From the NCBI RefSeq assembly GCF_025698545.1, contig NC_068571.1, positions 51,617,733 to 51,681,732 on the forward strand: a stretch of 64,000 nucleotides of DNA, given 5' to 3'. This document shows positions 2,423-62,140 of this stretch, one piece after another. The notes beneath the pieces were generated by a model that was not told the DNA's origin, ran no database searches, and was given only the letters and a program-made list of their open reading frames with translations. Each line of letters starts with the position of its first letter. Position 1 is the first letter of the stretch. The stretch is from Gossypium raimondii (lineage: Eukaryota; Streptophyta; Magnoliopsida; Malvales; Malvaceae). The position numbers were made by a program, and so were the translations under genes.

Positions 2423-4297
2423 TCATTCTCCCTTATCACTGTCATTATCATCACCATCTAGCTCACTTTCATGGCTTTCATTGTACTTTACCTTGCTTCC
2501 TTGTGCTACATTCTCACCAACTATGCCATCAAAATCCAATTTTGGGATGTTCATTCCAGAATCTTTAAGGTTCCCACTAATGTTTACTTGTGCAGTGACA
2601 AGGTCTCTCTCAGGAATATAGGCTTCTAAAAAGTCTGAATCACCTTGCTTTTGTACCTCTATGTCACTGTTAATCAAAGGTGTTGGTGAAGTGGGACAAG
2701 TAATGGGTATTCTTGAGTAAAGCTGACCCAATTGATCAAAATAACTGCATGTTTTAGATTGTTGAGAACGTTTCTTACCATTTTCTTTGCTTTTCCTGAA
2801 ATACTTGTTGATGTTTTCCCACTTTTCTTTGCATTTTTTGGCACTTCTTTGATAACCAAAGGAAGACATCAAAGAGCTCACTTGTTCCCAAACAGGTCCT
2901 TTTAATCCAGGTTCTCGAAACTTTGATTCTAAGTCACATCTCACTTGAATCAAGGCCTCAACCTCAGCTATAGGCCACCTGCTACTGTTATCAACTTTCA
3001 CTCCATTAAAGGGTTCCATTGCATTTCCAGGTTGCTGTAACAATGGAGTCTTTCCAGGAAGATTGATGCTTTCACCTGTAATTTTCTCCAAATAGGAAAC
3101 TATAAGAGCTTCTCTACTTGAAGCTAAAGCTTGTTCATGTGCCCTTGCAACGGCTTCCCTATTGCGTTTTTCAGCCTCTTGTTGCCTCCATGATTCTTCT
3201 TTCACTGACCTTTCTTTATCCATTCTTTCAATAAATTCCAAGAACCTTTTATGGAGACACTCTTGATGATCAGTCACTTGCTTCACCAAGCTCTCGAAAG
3301 CCACAACCATTGAACTCAATTGCTCCTTCATTTTCATCTTCCTCTTCTTCTTTTGAACCTTCCTTAATGAAGCTTCTTTCCCAATAGAAGCTTCGGATCC
3401 ATGATCAACCCCAGTAGCAACAACATTACCACCCCCACCATTGGCACCTACTACGTCATGCTCTTGAAACTTAGTTAAGTTCATGGAAGGACCAACATTT
3501 GCAGGTGAATTCTCGCCTGTGAGAGCAGACCCTGAACCAGCTTGAGCAGCTTCTCCACGCTTTCCAAGTCCATAAATTGCTTCAAGCTCACCAAACAGTC
3601 CATATTTGCTATCCAAATTCCTGCTTCTCTCACTTGTAGATTGACCAGGTTGTTGCAAAACTTTGTTGTACTTAGTCCCCTCTACCATTTTAGCTCCATC
3701 TGCACTACACTGCCTATTATCTAATCTGTTTAAGGGCTTCCTGGTAACATTTTAACAAACACATGGGTGACAAAGAAATCAACTTTGAAAAGAAAAGAAT
3801 AAAAAAACAGCAATCTTTATAAATTACCAAAAGGGTTCTTTGATGGGAGAATCTTCTTGAGGAGGCAAACAACGGGGCAAGAAAAGGGAATGTTGTTGCT
3901 GTTGCTCATTTCCATGGAGAAAAGTAGCACCGTTTTGCTGAGGATTCAAAGGTAAAGCAGCCTCTTTTTTCCCACTGTTTTCGTTAAGACCCAACTTGAA
4001 ATTAACAGCCAAAAAGGGTTGTTGTTGATTATGATGATGAACAGGTTCTGGGTGTTGAAATGGTTGAAACTGATGGTGGAAAAGCTGATGGGTAACTGGA
4101 TTTTCATGTTGTTTATTATGTTGTTGAGAATGTAAAGGGTAAGGGAAAACAGGTTGTTGTTGGTGATTATGAGGATTGGAAATGAAGAAAATTGAATCGG
4201 ATGAAGAAGCATCATCATCCTCCATGAATTGCTGTTGTTGTAGATGATGATGATGATGGTGATGGTGATGATGGGCACCATATTTGATGGGATGCAT
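2423..4297 (-). CDS. GT-2-like trihelix transcription factor
   Basis: Two-exon gene on the minus strand: exon 1 4297-3828, a 114-bp GT-AG intron, exon 2 3713-2423. The joined frame is 586 aa. An alternative acceptor a few bases downstream also keeps frame. The N-terminus (about residues 8-19) is a run of histidines followed by glutamines, then a His/Gln-rich low-complexity region to about 150. A basic stretch KKKRKMKMK (about 278-286) is a likely nuclear localisation signal. It begins a long Lys/Glu-rich helical segment (275-370), typical of the central coiled coil of GT-2 factors. The DNA-binding trihelix domain lies at about 401-488, with its three conserved tryptophans in SRWPIAEVEALIQ, GPVWEQVSS and CKEKWENINKYF. 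Family members bind GT elements in promoters. Classical GT-2 proteins carry two trihelices; here only the C-terminal one is visible, as in some GTL2-like proteins, so the exact orthologue is uncertain. Confidence 0.9.
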
Positions 4298-16650: not shown

Positions 16651-17347
16651 TAGACCTGTTCATGGGCCGGGCGGCCCGGTCCGACGGCCTGGCCGAAATA
16701 TGGGAGGGTTTGGGTAAAAATATTGGCCCGAAATATGGGCTTGGGTAAAATTTTAGGCCCGTTTAAAAAATGGGTCGGGCCTCGGGCAAGATTTTTTTGG
16801 GCCGGGCCGAAAAATATTAAATATATATTTTATTATTTTTAAAATATAATAGTTTTTTATTTTAAGTTTATTTACTTTCATTTCCTTAATTAGTGTTACA
16901 AAATAATAATAATAAAACATAAAGTTCGTTTTACTAATCAAATGTTAGATTTTGTTACAACAATTAATACAATTAATACAATTAATAATTTGATAAATTT
17001 ACTAATCAAATGTTAGATTTTATTACAACAATTAATACAATTAATACAATTAATAATTTGATAAATTTACTAATCAAATGTTAGATTTTATTACAACAAT
17101 TAATACAATTAACAATTAATAATTTGATAATTTTACTAACAATTAATTTTAATAACAATTAGTTTTAATTTTATTAAAAAATAATTTTAATTTTAATTAA
17201 AAACGGGCCGGGCCGGGCTCGGGCCCCATATTTTTTTCTTCGGGCCGGGCCTGGGTAAAATCTCAGGCCCATATTTCGGCCCGGGCCTAGTAAACGGGCT
17301 GAAATTTTTTTGTGGGCCCGGCCCGAATCGGCCCATGGACAGGTCTA
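16651..17347. mobile_element. hAT-type MITE with 8-bp target duplication
   Basis: The element begins TAGACCTGTTCATGGGCC and ends with its complement bearing one change (GGCCCATGGACAGGTCTA). It is flanked by the direct repeat GCTTGTAA at 16643-16650 and 17348-17355. An 8-bp target duplication is the hallmark of hAT transposons. The outer 150 bases of each side are GC-rich and strongly palindromic (repeated GGGCC/GGCCC). The middle is AT-rich and contains a 68-bp tandem repeat. No transposase is encoded, so it is non-autonomous. Good flank preservation suggests a comparatively recent insertion. Confidence 0.88.
16931..17134. repeat. 68-bp tandem repeat, three copies
   Basis: Units start at 16931, 16999 and 17067 with 'ttactaatcaaatgttagat', and each contains 'acaattaatacaattaat'. 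The copies are nearly identical. The array forms the AT-rich core of the hAT-type MITE. Confidence 0.9.
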
Positions 17348-25500: not shown

Positions 25501-28467
25501 TGAATAGGCTTTTTCTGTATGCTAAACCATTGTCTCAGTTATGCATGTGTATGTAGAAAGCCCTTTTATATGGACATTCGAGGATTGGGTGATAGAGATC
25601 TATGAGATTAGCTTTATCAGCTGATTGATAACTTCAAATGGGACCATAGATTTATCTGTCTTAATTCTGGTCTGCATCTAGCATTGCGTACCTACCTTTT
25701 GTTGCTACTAAATAAATATAGCTCCTTGGTCCTGCATTGTTGCATGTTGTTTTGTTGTGCTTTCTGACATACTTCTTGTTTCCTTGTTGCCCAGAGCTTG
25801 ACAGAAGTGCAGTTGTCCAGTACATCTTTAGTCAGTCTTTCTCTGGTTGGGTGTCGTGCTATTACTACTCTAGATCTTGCATGTCCTTGTCTTGAGAAAA
25901 TCTGCTTAGATGGGTGTGATCATCTCGGAAGTGCATCATTTTGTCCTGTAAGTTTAGAGTGACTGTAGCACACTTCTGCTGATATTAATTTGCTTATGTA
26001 TTATCGACTATTTGATTCGCATAATTCCATGCTGTTATGAAAATTTAAAAGCTGATTCATTTTGCTCCTTTTAGGCTGCTCTTCGGTCACTTAATCTTGG
26101 AATCTGCCCCAAATTGAACACGCTCAGAATTGATGCTCCATGTATGGTGTCTCTTGAGTTGAAAGGATGTGGTGTATTATCTGAAGCATCAATAAATTGT
26201 CCTCTATTGACATCTCTTGATGCATCCTTTTGCAGGTTTGTTGCAATTGTGCTACGTTCTTTTTTATGATTCTTTGTTTTGACCCATGGCTGACGCTTCT
26301 ATTTAACTTTATATGCAGCCAACTCAAGGATGATTGCTTATCTGCAACCACTGCTTCCTGCCCTCTTATTGAGTCACTAATATTGATGTCTTGCCCATCT
26401 ATTGGTTCTGATGGTCTTTTCTCTTTGCGCTGGCTTCCAAATTTAACGACACTTGATTTGTCTTACACCTTTTTGACGAATTTGCAGCCAGTTTTTGAGT
26501 CTTGTTTGCAGCTCAAGGTAACTTTAAAATCCTTGTTATATAAGCATTGATTAACCGTACAACACATTGGTTTATTCATGTTAAGTTCATTGTACTCCAC
26601 AATATAGGGTTGGGGAAAAAAAACTGAAAAAACTATTTGTATCATAGTGTTTGGTTCGGTTTTATTAAATTTGATTTTTATAATATAAAAATAAATATTA
26701 TTTTATTTTATTTATAATTTTTATTTTACTTTTTTATAGTTTTTGTATAATATAAAAATAAATATTATTTTATTTTATTTATAATTTTATTTTTACTTTT
26801 TTATAGTTTTTGTATAATATAAAATAAATATTATTTTATTTTATTTATAATTTTATTTTTATTTTTATAGTTTTTGTATAATATAAAAATAAATATTTTA
26901 TACGTAAATTAGTGAAAATAACTTCAAAAGTATATAGGAATTTTTTAGAAAGATTTTAAAAACCGATGAACCAAACTGATCCAAATAATTGGAATTCGGT
27001 TCTTTTTTTAAGAACCAGAATACTACAAGGCAACTGCAATCTTTTTCCAAACCGATTTGAACTGTGAACTATTATCACCCCTACCACAATTTGTGTGTCA
27101 TATTGGTTTGTGCTCTTAGTGATTTTGTATTTTGATCTAAATTCTAATGCCATTATATTTACTTAGGAGGAGAGTTTTCTCCCATAACACGCATTGTGTT
27201 GCTTCTTTTTCTACTAGTAAAGCTTGTTTCAACTTTGCCGGAAAAAAAAAGATGCGAGCAAATTTAAGAAAATTTTCAGATTCTTGTAAATTGTCTCAAT
27301 CAAGCTTCCAGTGTTTTCATGATTTACTGCTATGTTCTTTGGCTCACTTTTCCTTTATTGTAGGTGTTAAAATTACAAGCATGCAAGTATCTGGCAGACT
27401 CATCATTGGAGCCCCTTTACAAGGAAGGTGCTTTACAAGAACTCCGGGATTTGGACTTGTCATATGGTACCCTGTGCCAGTCTGCCATAGAGGAGCTTCT
27501 TGCTTATTGCACGCATCTTACCCATGTGAGCTTGAATGGATGCATAAATATGCATGACCTAAATTGGGGTTCTACTGGTGGTGGATTTGAATCACTTAAC
27601 GGATCTAGCATGTTTCCTTTTGAGAACGTGAATGAGTCAATTGAGCAACCAAATCGTTTACTGCAGAACCTCAATTGCGTAGGTTGTCCAAATATCAGGA
27701 AGGTGCTCATCCCACCAGCTGCACGTTGTTTCCACTTATCATCCCTAAATCTTTCTTTGTCAGTCAATTTAAAGGAAGTTGACCTTGCTTGTTACAGTTT
27801 GTCCTTTCTTAACCTAAGGTATTGATACAACTCCTTTCATGGTTATTATCTGTTTTTGTTTTATATGGTACTCTTCTCAATTTTTCTGCCTCTTTCATAA
27901 ATCAGCAATTGTTGCTCTTTGGAAATTTTGAAGCTTGGGTGTCCTAGACTGACCAGTCTGTTTCTTCAGGTATGCATTCTCGGTCTATAAAACCATAGAT
28001 GTTTAACTTTTAGGTCCTTTTTGCCTCTTTGCTCTGTTGGTTTTCTATCATTAGTACAAATTTGCAGATGATTATATTTTTTTTGAAGGTTTTTGTGAGG
28101 TCTCTTTGTTATATTTGTTTATTTCGTCACAATGATAAGCTTCTCATATGGTGCTGTTTTATTTTGTGTATCGGTGTTTTGAAGTCTTGCAACATAGAGG
28201 AAGAAACCGTTGAAACTGCTATATCACAGTGTAGCATGCTGGAGACTTTGGATGTTCGCTTTTGTCCAAAGGTGAGAGCATTCTTTTTCCTTTTTGTTCC
28301 CCCTCCATTTTTGCTCCCATCTGTATTCACTTCTTATACCTTGCTTTGCTTAAATCATATTCACGAATTTTTCATGTGTCTGATAGATTTGCTCGATGAA
28401 TATGGGGAGGTTACGTGCAGTTTGTCCGAGTTTGAAGCGTATATTTAGTAGCTTGTCATCCGTATGA
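22572..28467 (+). CDS. SLOMO: F-box/LRR protein, SLOMO/FBL15 orthologue
   Basis: Seventeen exons join in frame into 1005 aa: 22572-23005, 23092-23314, 23412-23544, 23864-23963, 24054-24251, 24334-24604, 24699-24797, 24898-24986, 25136-25235, 25325-25495, 25795-25947, 26075-26235, 26319-26517, 27364-27818, 27906-27969, 28185-28271, 28387-28467. The start MRIWCCLWF is the first ATG of the frame; an acidic, alanine-rich region follows. The F-box lies at about 210-255 (MDLTDDLLHMVFSFLDHCNL then VCRQWR). From about 285 to the end run many cysteine-containing LRRs with repeated C-P-x-L-x-x-L-x-x-S/D phrasing. F-box proteins link targets to the SCF ubiquitin ligase through SKP1. Arabidopsis SLOW MOTION (FBL15) affects plastochron length and auxin level at the shoot meristem. 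All splice sites are GT-AG. Intron 13 (846 bp) is the largest and holds a repeat. No break was seen. Confidence 0.95.
26570..27090. repeat. Intronic foldback with 67-bp tandem array
   Basis: Inside intron 13 of the SLOMO-like gene. The outer parts are loosely mirrored: 'gtttggttcggttttatt' at about 26648 and 'aaaaaccgatgaaccaaac' at about 26958. The core at 26679-26895 is an AT-only tandem repeat whose units start at 26679, 26746, 26813 and 26877 (periods 67, 67, 64) with 'tataatataaaa'. It is probably a MITE whose centre expanded. Confidence 0.65.
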
Positions 28468-55644: not shown

Positions 55645-58600
55645 ATGATGACATCGGTATTTCATTTGGAGTTTGTCTTCTTGGTTTCTCTCTTTTGTTT
55701 GGGTTTTGCTTTTGTGGATTCTGAAGATGGTAAGTGATCTCTTTTCTTTTTTCATATAAAAAAAAGTCTCCTTTTCTGGTTTTGTTTGGATGGTTTGAAA
55801 ATACAAGAAAATAATGGTTAGTTAAGTCAAACTTTTCTTATTCAAAATTTAAAGATTAAATTTGCTGCTTGTTTCCTAACGCTTAAGGCTCATGCTTGAA
55901 GCAACAATCTTTTGATTTTTTTCTCTTCCAAAAGGCTTTGAACATAGATTGATTGTTTATGTTGTCTGTCCTTGTATTTAATTTAATTTTTTCTGCAATG
56001 AAACCAACATTTCTTGCTTTTGCTTATGTTATGTAATGTAATAAAGGAACAACACTGTTGGAGATAAAGAAGTCTTTTAAAGATGTGGACAATGTTCTAT
56101 ATGACTGGACAGATACACCATCTTCAGATTACTGTGTTTGGAGAGGGGTCACTTGTGACAATGTCACCTTCAATGTCGTTGCACTGTAAGTTTTGATACT
56201 ATAATTCATTTCTCTTTTCACTTGTTAGCCTATGTTGGTCATTGACATTCTTTATGGTAAGATATTTTCTTTCTTGGTTTTGCCAGAAAAGTTTGTTTTT
56301 TTTTTTAAAAGCTGATCCTTGTTTTTTGTTTGGTTTCTGGTACTGTAGTAACCTGTCAGGTTTAAATCTTGATGGGGAAATCTCAACAGCTATTGGAAAG
56401 CTCAAGGACCTTGTTACAATGTACTGTTTATTTTTCATTGCCTTTTCTCTTTGAAATCCAATCTTTGTTCTATAACATGAGAAATTTGATATAAACTGTA
56501 AGTATATTAGTTGCTCTTATGCATGAAATTTGATTGAGACTGATAAAGGTTGTGTCTTTTTTTATTATCAGTGACCTTAGAGGAAATCGTTTGTCTGGTC
56601 AAATACCGGACGAGATTGGTGACTGTTCATCATTGAAAAGCCTGTAAGTAGTTTACTAGAACAGAGCTCAATTGAAGTTTGGTTAAGCATCTTGTAAGTT
56701 AAACTGAACATTGTTTTGTTGGAGTTATTAGGGACCTGTCTTTTAATGAGTTATATGGAGACATACCATTTTCAATATCGAAACTGAGGCAACTGGAATT
56801 CCTGTAAGTTAATTCGAAGCATTTCTCACTATATATCGCATTACTGCTAATTCTCAGCTTGCTCAGTTCTTCTAATTTTGAAACTTTTAAATGACTGTTC
56901 AGAGTTCTGAAAAACAATCAGTTAATTGGACCGATACCTTCAACATTGTCGCAGATTCCAAACTTGAAAGTTCTGTAAGTTCTTTCTTCTTATTACTTTA
57001 TATTGCCTTATAATTCTCCTGATGTTTTGAAGGAATTTTCTTTCCCTGATATTTGTTTCCAGGGACCTATCACAAAATAAACTGAGTGGAGAAATACCAA
57101 GGCTTATCTATTGGAACGAAGTGTTACAGTATTTGTGAGTGTACAATAGTTACTGCACCTTTTCTTTCACTGTATGACAGTCCGATTTATTATTTCTATC
57201 TAATCATATCTTCTCATAAATTCTTAGCTTGGATGCTTTTAATTCGTATCTTTTCTTCCTCTTTGTAGTGGTTTGCGAGGAAACAATCTGGTAGGTACAC
57301 TCTCTCCAGACATGTGCCAGCTAACTGGTTTGTGGTACTTGTAAGTTTCCTTACTATTCTTCTTCTTCTTCTTCTTCTTGTTCATGACCGACTTTCTGTC
57401 TTTTGACACGTAAGACTCTTTTCCGGTTTTAACTAAAACTCAATATTGTTCGCAGTGATGTGAGAAACAACAGTTTAACTGGTAACATCCCTCAGAATAT
57501 AGGCAACTGCACGGCTTTCCAGGTCTTGTATGTACTCATCATTTAGTTCAATGAGGTTTAATGCTTTCAAAGTGCCTATATTGGTTAACCAAAAACATCC
57601 GTTTCTTGTGATTGGTAGGGACTTGTCGTACAACCAGCTAACCGGGGAAATTCCTTTCAATATTGGGTTCTTGCAAGTAGCTACATTGTACGTGCCTGAA
57701 AATCCCTCTTCTTTTTTCCTTTTTAATGACAATGTACCTACTAACTACTTAGTTTCATATCCAATTTCCTGGTTAGATCTTTGCAAGGTAATCGTCTTTC
57801 TGGGAAGATTCCATCTGTTATTGGCCTTATGCAAGCACTTGCTGTATTGTAAGTGCTTTTAACCATCATTTGAATTCTCTCTTTTTGTCGTGTTATCAAT
57901 CTTATCTATGGTTGTTTTCTTGTGTATACTATCCAGGGATTTAAGCTGCAACAAGTTAAGTGGACCCATCCCTCCCATCTTAGGGAATCTGACCTACACA
58001 GAAAAATTGTAAGTAGGTACTTACTGTATGTATATTTCAATATCATTTGTTAGTCCTGATTGCAACTTGTAAGTTTTAGAATATGGAACGCAAAGTATAA
58101 TGACACAGCTGCTAGTATTATTCTTGAACAATGTTTTGATGGCCATATACCATATGCTGTAGATATTTGCATGGTAACCAACTGTCTGGATCAATTCCTC
58201 CTGAGCTGGGAAATATGACAAAGCTTCACTACTTGTAAGATTAATTTTCTTTGTTTACGTTTCATACTTCCGGTGCTAAGTGGCCTCTGCCAAACTTCTT
58301 CTCTGTATCTCGACTGTCCACATAAAACATCGGTTATGTCGATACCTATAAAAGCAATTTTCAGCCATCTCAACCATCGGTTTGCTTTGTGCAGGGAGCT
58401 GAATGATAATTATCTTACAGGACTTATTCCACCTGAGCTAGGGAAGTTAACAGAACTGTTTGATCTGTATGTTAGTCCTACTGGTTGTTCAAATGTATAA
58501 GTTAAGCTATGCCATAATCACTGATACAACTTTTTGCAGAAATGTTGCCAACAACCATCTTGAAGGGCCTATTCCTGAAAATCTTAGCTCCTGTACAAAT

Positions 58601-61600
58601 CTCAACAGCCTGTAAGCATTGATCTCATTTCCATAATTTTTATTCTTTTAAATTTGAACAGTTTTAAGGTAGTTATCGATTGATTGATTTGATGACAGCA
58701 ATGTGCATGGAAACAAGTTGAATGGAACCATTCCACCTGCTTTTGAAAGGCTAGAGAGTATGACTTATTTGTAAGCTTCGGCCTTGTTATACCAAAATGC
58801 GTGACTCAAATGCTAAGCATCTTGCATAATGTACCTTAGAAATATCATCGCTTTAATCATGAATTTTTTATCTCAGGAATCTCTCCTCGAATGATATCAA
58901 GGGTTTTATAGCAATTGAGCTTTCACGTATCGGGAATTTAGATACATTGTAAGTATTAAGTGCCATAAGGTCTTCCTCTTTGTTGATTTTTTTTTTGTTC
59001 TTATTTGTTGTTTGGTTTTTAGGGACATTTCTAACAACAAAATTAGTGGCTCCATTCCTTCATCTCTCGGTGATTTGGAACACCTTCTGAAGCTGTGAGT
59101 ACATCGGGAAAATCATATCCAACCTTCTAGTTTAAGTGATTAGCAAATATTTTTATCATTGCTTTATTTGTTCTTGTAGGAATTTAAGCAGAAATAATTT
59201 GACCGGAGTCATTCCGGCAGAATTTGGTAACCTAAGAAGCGTTTTAGAAATGTAAGAAATCTTGATTTTTCTGCCATGAAAATAGAAATAGGTTAGAGCC
59301 TTAAGTAGTACTTGTCTTATGCTTCTACATTGCAGAGACCTTTCAAATAATCATCTCTCAGGCATTATTCCTCGGGAACTTGCACAGCTTCAGGACCTGT
59401 ACTCATTGTAAGTTACTTTTTCAGCACCAATTCCGAACATTTTAAGTGTTGGAAAGAACATGCCGGCATACACAACACTTCCATTGATTGTATCTGTGTT
59501 AATGAGAACATGTTGGAATAAATGGTGGCATTTTATGGCCTTCGCAAAACCTTAACGCTCTAGCAAAACACCTCATGTGCCTAAATATCTTATATGGTCT
59601 TGACTTAGAATAGAATATTTGCTCTTGTTTATAAGCTGCTGGTTCTATATAATGCAGGAGAATAGAAAACAATAATTCATCCGGAGATTTGATGTCACTA
59701 ATCAACTGTATTAGTCTTTACCAATTTTATGGCCTTCGCAAAACCTTAACGCTCTAGCAAAACATCTCATGTACCTAAATATCTTATATGGTCTTGACTT
59801 AGAATAGAATATTTGCTCTTGTTTATAAGCTGCTGGTTCTATATAATGCAGGAGAATAGAAAACAATAATTTATCCGGAGATTTGATGTCACTAATCAAC
59901 TGTATTAGTCTTACCAACTTGTGAGTTGACGGTTCACTAGATTTTGTACTTTATTTTCGGTTTAGGGTTGCATTATATAATCCCCTAACTTTTCTTGAAA
60001 CATTGCAGGAATGTATCCCATAACAATCTTGCAGGTGATATTCCCACAAGCAATAACTTTTCAAGATTCTCACCAGACAGGTAAGATTTCGCTAGTTTGC
60101 ATTCTAAACAAATATCCGTGAACCGAAAAGCTATATTTAGCTGCTACCCTTTTTCGCAAGCAAAGCTGAGTTCAAACTGCCATCTCATTGCAGTTTCATT
60201 GGAAATCCCGGGCTCTGTGGCTATTGGCTTTCTTCTACATGCCACGGGTCTCATCCCGCGGAGAGAGGTATTGATTACCTTAGAGAGTGATGTATTTTTA
60301 TCTTATATGTTGATACTATGAATGGCTATAAGCTTTAAGGCAGATGTTAAAGTTAGAAACTGAAAAGGCATTAGAACTAGAAAACGGATATCAAAACAAT
60401 GAGCTACCACCTCATAGTTTGTTTTGGCACCTATGCATGGAGTTCTTGGCAACTACCATTCCCTATTGTAGTTGGTCAATGTTTTCTTGGCATGTTTAAT
60501 CTGTCAGTTATCTTTGGTTGATTATTCATTTTGTTGTGCTCACTTATCTATGCAGTTTCAATCTCTAAAGCTGCAATCCTCGGCATTGCACTTGGTGCTC
60601 TTGTGATTCTTCTAATGATCTTGATCGCAGCATGTAGCCCGCACAATCCTACACCTTTTCCAGATGGATCACTGGATAAGCCAGGTGCCTTGCCTTCTCC
60701 TTTATGTGTAAACCTATGAAGTCCTCTTGATTTGGAGTATATAGTACATAAAAATACTTATTGCGAACTGTTAGTCAGTTTTTGTTCCTTTTTCTTAAAG
60801 ATACCTTATTGAAACTTATGGCCCTTGTTATTGATTCATGGACTTCTTGACGGCAGTTACTTACTCAAGACCGAAATTGGTGATCCTTCACATGAATATG
60901 GCACTTCATGTATACGAGGACATTATGAGGGTGACTGAGAATCTGAGTGAGAAGTATATAATTGGTAGTGGTGCATCAAGCACGGTCTACAAATGTGTTC
61001 TTAAGAATTGCAGGCCAGTTGCCATCAAGAGGCTTTACTCTCATTATCCACAATGCTTGAAGGAATTCGAGACAGAACTCGAGACAATTGGGAGTATTAA
61101 GCACCGAAATCTGGTCAGCCTTCAAGGGTATTCTCTCTCCCCGTCTCGGAACCTTCTCTTCTATGACTATATGGAAAATGGCAGTCTCTGGGATCTCCTC
61201 CATGGTAAGTTTGTTTCCAAGAACAAACCAGTTCCATGTGTTAGAATATGTTTTGGTGTTTCTTTAGCTTCTCTCTAAGCTCATTTACGTGTCATGAATT
61301 ACAAGTTTGTTCTTTTCTTGCAGTTTCTACCAAGAGGAAAGTTCTCGGTTGGGACATTCGATTGAAGATTGCACTTGGAGCTGCACAAGGGTTAGCGTAT
61401 TTACATCATGACTGTAGTCCACGAATCATCCACAGGGATGTGAAGTCATCAAACATTTTGTTGGACAAGGATTTAGAGGCTCATCTTACTGATTTTGGCA
61501 TTGCTAAAAGCTTATGCATATCAAAGTCTCACACTTCTACATACGTAATGGGCACCATTGGTTATATAGACCCTGAATATGCTCGCACTTCTCGCCTGAC

Positions 61601-62140
61601 TGAGAAATCTGACGTTTACAGCTATGGGATTGTTCTACTTGAGTTACTAACTGGAAGGAAACCTGTAGACAATGAATCCAGTCTTCATCATCTGGTAAGT
61701 TTTTATATCCATCTATAATTCGGGTTTGAAGTAGTTTAAAAACTGTATTGATATCACGTTCTTAACAGATTCTGTCAAAGGCTGCTAATGATGCCGTCAT
61801 GGAAACCACTGATCCGGAGATCACTGCAACTTGCAAAGATCTTGGAGCTGTTAAGAAAGTTTTTCAGCTTGCCCTTCTATGCACCAAGAGACACCCATTG
61901 GATCGACCAACAATGCATGAAGTGACACGAGTTCTAGGAAGCCTAAGGCCATTGGAACCCCCGGCAAAGCAACCAACCACAATCCCACCGGCACCACTTC
62001 CATCTACCAAGGTCACTTCTTACATGGATGAGTATGCAAATCTCAAGACTCCACACTTAGTCAATTGCCCATCTATGAGTACCTCAGATGCACAACTTTT
62101 CATCAACTTCGGAGAGGTTATATCTCGAAACAGTGAGTGA
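55645..62140 (+). CDS. ERECTA: ERECTA leucine-rich-repeat receptor kinase
   Basis: Twenty-seven exons join into 983 aa (Arabidopsis ERECTA is 976): 55645-55729, 56047-56185, 56349-56420, 56572-56643, 56732-56803, 56903-56974, 57063-57134, 57269-57340, 57456-57527, 57619-57687, 57777-57848, 57937-58008, 58163-58234, 58395-58466, 58540-58611, 58699-58770, 58877-58948, 59023-59094, 59180-59251, 59336-59407, 59852-59920, 60009-60080, 60194-60267, 60556-60684, 60857-61204, 61324-61694, 61769-62140. Order: signal peptide (about 1-25), N-cap with [12 protein letters not shown], about 20 LRRs mostly encoded one per 72-nt exon, membrane span 584-604, kinase with [10 protein letters not shown], Lys678, HRDVK (773-777), DFG (793-795) and [11 protein letters not shown]. 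All key kinase residues are present, and the tail ends GEVISRNSE as in ERECTA. The receptor binds EPF/EPFL peptides and controls stem and organ growth and stomatal spacing. Exon 21 is duplicated as a dead copy at 59658. Confidence 0.97.
57357..57379 (+). repeat. (TTC)n microsatellite in ERECTA intron 8
   Basis: About 23 bases of perfect TTC repeat inside the intron between 57340 and 57456. Confidence 0.9.
59531..59917 (+). repeat. 194-bp tandem duplication inside ERECTA
   Basis: Copy 1 is 59531-59724 and copy 2 is 59725-59917, both opening 'ttttatggccttcgcaaaac'. They differ at only about four positions, including one T lost in copy 2. Each contains intron 20 sequence, the acceptor 'aatgcag' and 66-67 bases of exon 21. 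Only copy 2 is followed by the 5' splice site ('aacttgtgagt'), so only copy 2 can be a normal exon. Read from the acceptor at 59657, copy 1 reaches an in-frame TAG at 59755-59757. Confidence 0.95.

Follow-up and report, generated by a model that had tools for sequence, protein, structure and literature searches.

A recent 194-bp tandem duplication across the intron 20/exon 21 boundary of an ERECTA gene of Gossypium raimondii

What becomes of a receptor gene when a short segment carrying one of its splice acceptors is copied in tandem? This question is raised by the ERECTA gene in a 64,000-nt window of the Gossypium raimondii genome (C7:51617733-51681732, within a genome of 750.8 Mb), where two head-to-tail copies of 194 bp span the boundary between intron 20 and exon 21. 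We consider it probable that this is an ordinary and recent duplication made by DNA repair, in which the downstream copy (copy 2) serves as the working exon, the upstream copy (copy 1) is a decoy without a donor, and no regulatory role has evolved.

Geometry and origin of the duplication

The original prediction had proposed a 194-bp direct repeat with a complete acceptor and most of exon 21, which encodes a leucine-rich repeat (LRR), and three routes agree with it. Repeat search, Tandem Repeats Finder and global alignment place copy 1 at 59530..59723 and copy 2 at 59724..59917, both on the + strand (positions are those of the window). The repeat search returned an ungapped match of 189 nt at 98%, while Tandem Repeats Finder reported 59530-59917 with a period of 194, 2.0 copies and 97% matches. 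The copies differ by three substitutions (59571C/59765T, 59579G/59773A and 59678C/59872T) and by one 1-nt indel, an extra T in copy 1 that global alignment places in TCTTTACC versus TCTTACC; the four or so differing sites first counted were thus correct. The longest exact direct repeat in 58000-61000 reached at least 60 nt, the ceiling of the search, versus a maximum of 15 nt in 100 dinucleotide shuffles, which rules out a chance repeat.

The copies meet with one base of homology, an A, and the repeat ends are ambiguous by that base. The start first given, 59531, is therefore as good as 59530; the original unit would then be 193 bp, with copy 1 reaching 194 through its extra T. Each copy starts 128 nt before the end of intron 20 (127 nt with the shared A assigned elsewhere) and reaches into exon 21, covering at most the first 66 of its 69 nt. 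In copy 1 the exon-21-like segment (59658..59724, + strand) comprises those first 66 nt plus the inserted T, its last A being shared with the next copy; it carries a leucine-to-serine change and has no donor. The absence of a donor had been read as a loss. The absence stands and the loss does not, since the duplicated segment stops 3 nt before the end of the exon and the donor lay outside it from the start.

Adjacent head-to-tail copies with little homology at their junction, missing from a related copy of the gene, are what characterizes short tandem duplications made by end-joining or patch repair, and all of this is seen here. Most likely this one arose in C7 ERECTA when staggered breaks or adjacent nicks were repaired with errors, copying 127-128 nt from the end of intron 20 and 65-66 nt from the start of exon 21. 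A sample of 20 random 10-kb stretches of the genome contained nine Tandem Repeats Finder rows with a period of at least 60, distributed over six stretches; of these nine, one reached 95% matches or more (89 bp x 2, 100%). Short tandem duplications are therefore not rare in this genome. The window itself has three rows with a period of at least 60, all with at least 95% matches; the other high-identity arrays lie at 16930-17139 (68 bp x 3.1) and 26675-26897 (67 bp x 3.4). A DNA search with 551 bp against the 751-Mb genome, which skipped very common words and recognized close copies only (the paralogue on C6 was beyond its reach), found no near-identical second place. Within that scope the segment occupies a single genomic place, and a dispersed element was rejected.

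Near-identical adjacent copies are also a classic fault of assembly, in which one real copy is represented twice. Such an error is very unlikely here: four differences separate the copies, one of them an indel in the exon part, the window contains no N, and a mis-join of haplotypes would need a haplotype with a frameshifted exon 21.

Splice sites and predicted products

Spliced at acceptor 2, the ERECTA gene occupies 55645..62140 on the + strand in a model of 27 exons with 983 codons plus stop. Pfam matches LRRNT_2, LRR_1 and Pkinase domains in its protein, and the closest solved structures are the ectodomains of ERL1 and ERL2. One phase is common to exons 3-22, with approximately one LRR per exon. 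A 27-exon structure is expected of ERECTA genes, and the LRRNT, some 20 single-exon LRRs, a hydrophobic span judged by eye and the kinase complete the architecture of this type. Exon 20, also an LRR exon (59336..59407, + strand), ends at a GTAAGT donor scoring 11.8. Intron 20 (59408..59851, + strand) measures 444 nt with acceptor 2 and 250 nt with acceptor 1, and the 69-nt exon 21 (59852..59920, + strand), equal in length to that of the C6 paralogue, ends at a GTGAGT donor scoring 11.0. Sites were scored with a matrix built from 73 introns of three ERECTA-family genes (exons 1-23 in the case of the C11 gene), from which intron 20 of the window was excluded.

The two acceptors cannot be told apart by strength. 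Acceptor 1, with its AG at 59656..59657 (+ strand), scores 9.0, as does acceptor 2, and the training median is also 9.0; around the exon start the two share 98 identical nucleotides, 78 before it and 20 after. They differ in what follows them. A strong donor lies 69 nt past acceptor 2, and none lies within 260 nt of acceptor 1. The best GT inside the exon part of copy 1 scores 3.0, and the best just after it 3.6 (CAT/GTACCT, 59771..59776, + strand, downstream of the stop described below), compared with a training median of 10.6. The training minimum is -1.6, so a weak donor might still be used for copy 1. Exon 21 is AT-rich (0.70, versus an exon mean of 0.59), and both acceptors therefore show little base contrast, which may make recognition of both inefficient.

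We modelled 12 isoforms and counted ten, excluding two cut at 59692 where the donor was one base off. Among the ten, only acceptor 2 (59852) yields the full receptor of 983 aa. The seven models that use acceptor 1 all end at 522-589 residues, and an in-frame extra LRR was rejected among the isoforms modelled. Skipping exon 21 wholly would leave an in-frame protein of 960 aa, a possible product that remains unsupported. As had been predicted, using the acceptor that ends at 59657 and reading through to the true donor leads into a TAG at 59755..59757 (+ strand) after 538 residues. The same length had been claimed for retention of the region, and this proved wrong: a transcript that keeps the whole of intron 20 stops after 506 residues, since ...TCATT is followed by GTAAG.

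The proposal of a decoy acceptor with a truncated product is supported by the sequence. The full receptor would be made by joining the exon 20 donor to acceptor 2, with copy 1 treated as intron, while some transcripts may use acceptor 1 and read on across the two copies as far as the true donor. In these the next exon junction comes 163 nt after the premature stop and six introns follow, so that decay is the likelier fate; such transcripts would be removed by nonsense-mediated decay.

It had further been suggested that the duplication acts as a regulated poison exon or as a source of a soluble fragment of the ERECTA ectodomain. In its favour is the in-frame TAG after 538 residues, ahead of the membrane span and the kinase. 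Nothing in the present analysis, however, supports such a role. To act as a cassette, a poison exon must have a donor of its own, and copy 1, which has an acceptor and a TAG, has no good one. The feature is absent from the C6 paralogue, the 538-aa product ends before the end of the last LRR and before the Cys-containing segment that follows, and the position of the stop favours decay over a stable fragment. We accordingly regard such a role as the least probable of the explanations considered. Hardly more credible is the idea that a natural contest of position alone between identical acceptors has been kept as a dosage dial, setting the share of transcripts sent to decay, with lower output selected (for example in stature or stomatal density).

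Age of the duplication and state of the gene

A genome search with the kinase exon, in which 150 of 1168 candidates were scored so that the counts are lower bounds, found besides the window at least a second ERECTA on C6 (91%), an ERL-like gene on C11 (79%) and two matches at 44-46%. The C6 ERECTA (C6:15938800-15948700, reverse strand) fits the same 27 exons; its intron 20 is 370 nt long with only one acceptor, followed by only one exon 21 of 69 nt, without the duplication. With one acceptor and one exon 21 on C6, the duplication arose in the C7 gene, later than its split from the C6 gene. A feature ancestral to both ERECTA copies was rejected, as the C6 intron 20 is long (370 nt) and yet has no self-repeat. 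We note that intron 20 of the ERL-like gene on C11 measures 91 nt, versus 370 nt on C6 and 444 nt on C7.

The C6 gene is a related gene, a paralogue and candidate homoeologue of the one in the window. Near its left end the window carries a trihelix gene whose best match elsewhere lies on C6 at 16.42 Mb, some 0.48 Mb away from the ERECTA there, and these linked trihelix/ERECTA pairs suggest an old segmental or whole-genome duplication. The trihelix-type gene itself (Myb/SANT-like, PF13837) lies at 2423-3688 on the - strand; its C6 match, at 76%, contains one in-frame TAA, and the C6 copy may be broken or spliced there. Other observations concern the ERECTA proteins. The last exon of the C6 gene ends ...MSTSQGSWRGHIS, unlike the window copy, by a deletion plus a frame change at the extreme C-terminus. 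Exon 17 of the window gene (58877-58948) differs from the IKGSIPIELS of C6 at a site conserved among relatives, and the join of exons 7 and 8 (57063-57340) reads QYFGLRG versus QYLGLRG in C6, the C11 ERL-like gene and the solved ERLs. A tRNA scan found none.

By two methods over 970 codons, nonsynonymous divergence (dN) between the C7 and C6 ERECTA genes is 0.065-0.074 and synonymous divergence (dS) 0.40-0.58, giving a dN/dS of about 0.11-0.18. Set against that dS, three substitutions in 194 bp amount to roughly 3-4% of it, and the recent age first proposed for the event holds up when measured against the C6 paralogue, provided that the copies have undergone no gene conversion.

With C6 as reference, copy 2 retains the reading frame and the LENNNLSG-type leucine, and copy 1 has a serine and the inserted T. 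On this comparison the two exon differences are both derived in copy 1, as would be expected if copy 1 is untranslated, although two events are weak evidence. A pseudogene was rejected on the grounds of the open coding sequence and the low dN/dS. A gene without function from the duplication onwards should have gathered disabling changes in its coding sequence, on average 2.0, 3.2, 4.4 or 8.8 at indel/substitution ratios of 0.05, 0.10, 0.15 and 0.33. None was seen; the chance of zero is 0.21, 0.105, 0.06 and 0.01, respectively. This absence favours continued ERECTA function without proving it. On balance the duplication would then be neutral or cost a little output, with the C6 ERECTA and the ERL-like gene acting as a buffer.

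Several points weigh against this reading. The decay test is weak, with a chance of no disabling change as high as 0.21. Two intronic differences between the copies were left out of the polarisation, as the comparison with C6 is unreliable there. With C11 as outgroup, lineage-specific changes in exons 1-22 number 21 in C7 versus 11 in C6 (P = 0.077; the C11 model is partial and stops at exon 25), a hint of relaxed constraint on C7 ERECTA. In rice, the share of tandem duplications among insertions drops to 5% by 200 bp (PMC7971508), so that a unit of 194 bp is long for a mechanism of this type. Early plant studies favoured intron definition (PMC2327258). If this applies here, the nearer acceptor 1 would be favoured and could dominate, leaving the gene mostly disabled; this is our chief ground for expecting acceptor 1 to be used to some or even a large extent.

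The last point leads to the alternative of a loss-of-function allele or strong hypomorph, in which acceptor 1 takes most transcripts and the C6 ERECTA does the work. The identity of the acceptors across 98 nt, the shorter 250-nt intron to acceptor 1, the redundancy provided by C6 and the excess of changes in the C7 lineage are all consistent with it. Against it are the open coding sequence, the complete match to the kinase domain, the chance of only 0.01-0.21 that a gene evolving neutrally from the duplication onwards would show no disabling change, and the strong donor that only acceptor 2 has nearby. We consider this alternative rather unlikely, yet a good deal more plausible than a regulatory role or an assembly error. 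Splice-site use is something we infer throughout, and the effect on ERECTA output could range from nil to strong.

Comparable cases and significance

The kind of event is already known: short tandem duplications are common in plants, being in rice the commonest insertions and enriched at 50-200 bp (PMC7971508), and a case at an intron/exon boundary has been published in potato. There the RdRp gene PGSC0003DMG402000361 carries a tandem duplication across intron 1 and exon 2 (PMC4974935). As in ERECTA, the acceptor signals were inherited from the parent intron and few sites differ between the copies, ten in potato versus four here (PMC4974935). The potato duplication differs in having recruited a cryptic GTAAG donor, and its new intron was shown by 106 RNA-seq reads (PMC4974935). 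In ERECTA the best GT of the exon part scores 3.0, and the seven modelled acceptor-1 isoforms are all frame-broken or stopped. The patch-repair duplications described in rice are likewise head-to-tail, reach lengths of about 200 bp and show next to no homology at the junction (PMC7971508). The ERECTA event differs in lying within a gene and across a splice site.

A truncated ERECTA without its kinase, as the 538-aa product would be, has a counterpart in AtDeltaKinase, which acts as a dominant negative (Villagarcia 2012, as cited in PMC10704031). The AtDeltaKinase construct reportedly retains its membrane span. The 538-aa product would differ in losing the span too, together with the final part of the last LRR. 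Among the titles and abstract openings listed from open-access papers we found no such duplication in ERECTA, and nothing useful on ERECTA splice variants or competing duplicated acceptors.

If the ordinary origin by repair is correct, this locus offers a young and clean example of how repair errors scramble the exon structure of plant genes, in a receptor built of approximately one LRR per exon. With some ten more copied bases the donor would have been included and an LRR could have been added. Because the acceptors are identical across 98 nt, the gene amounts to a natural experiment on how position influences the choice of plant 3' splice sites, and the duplication may mark a weakened allele of ERECTA.
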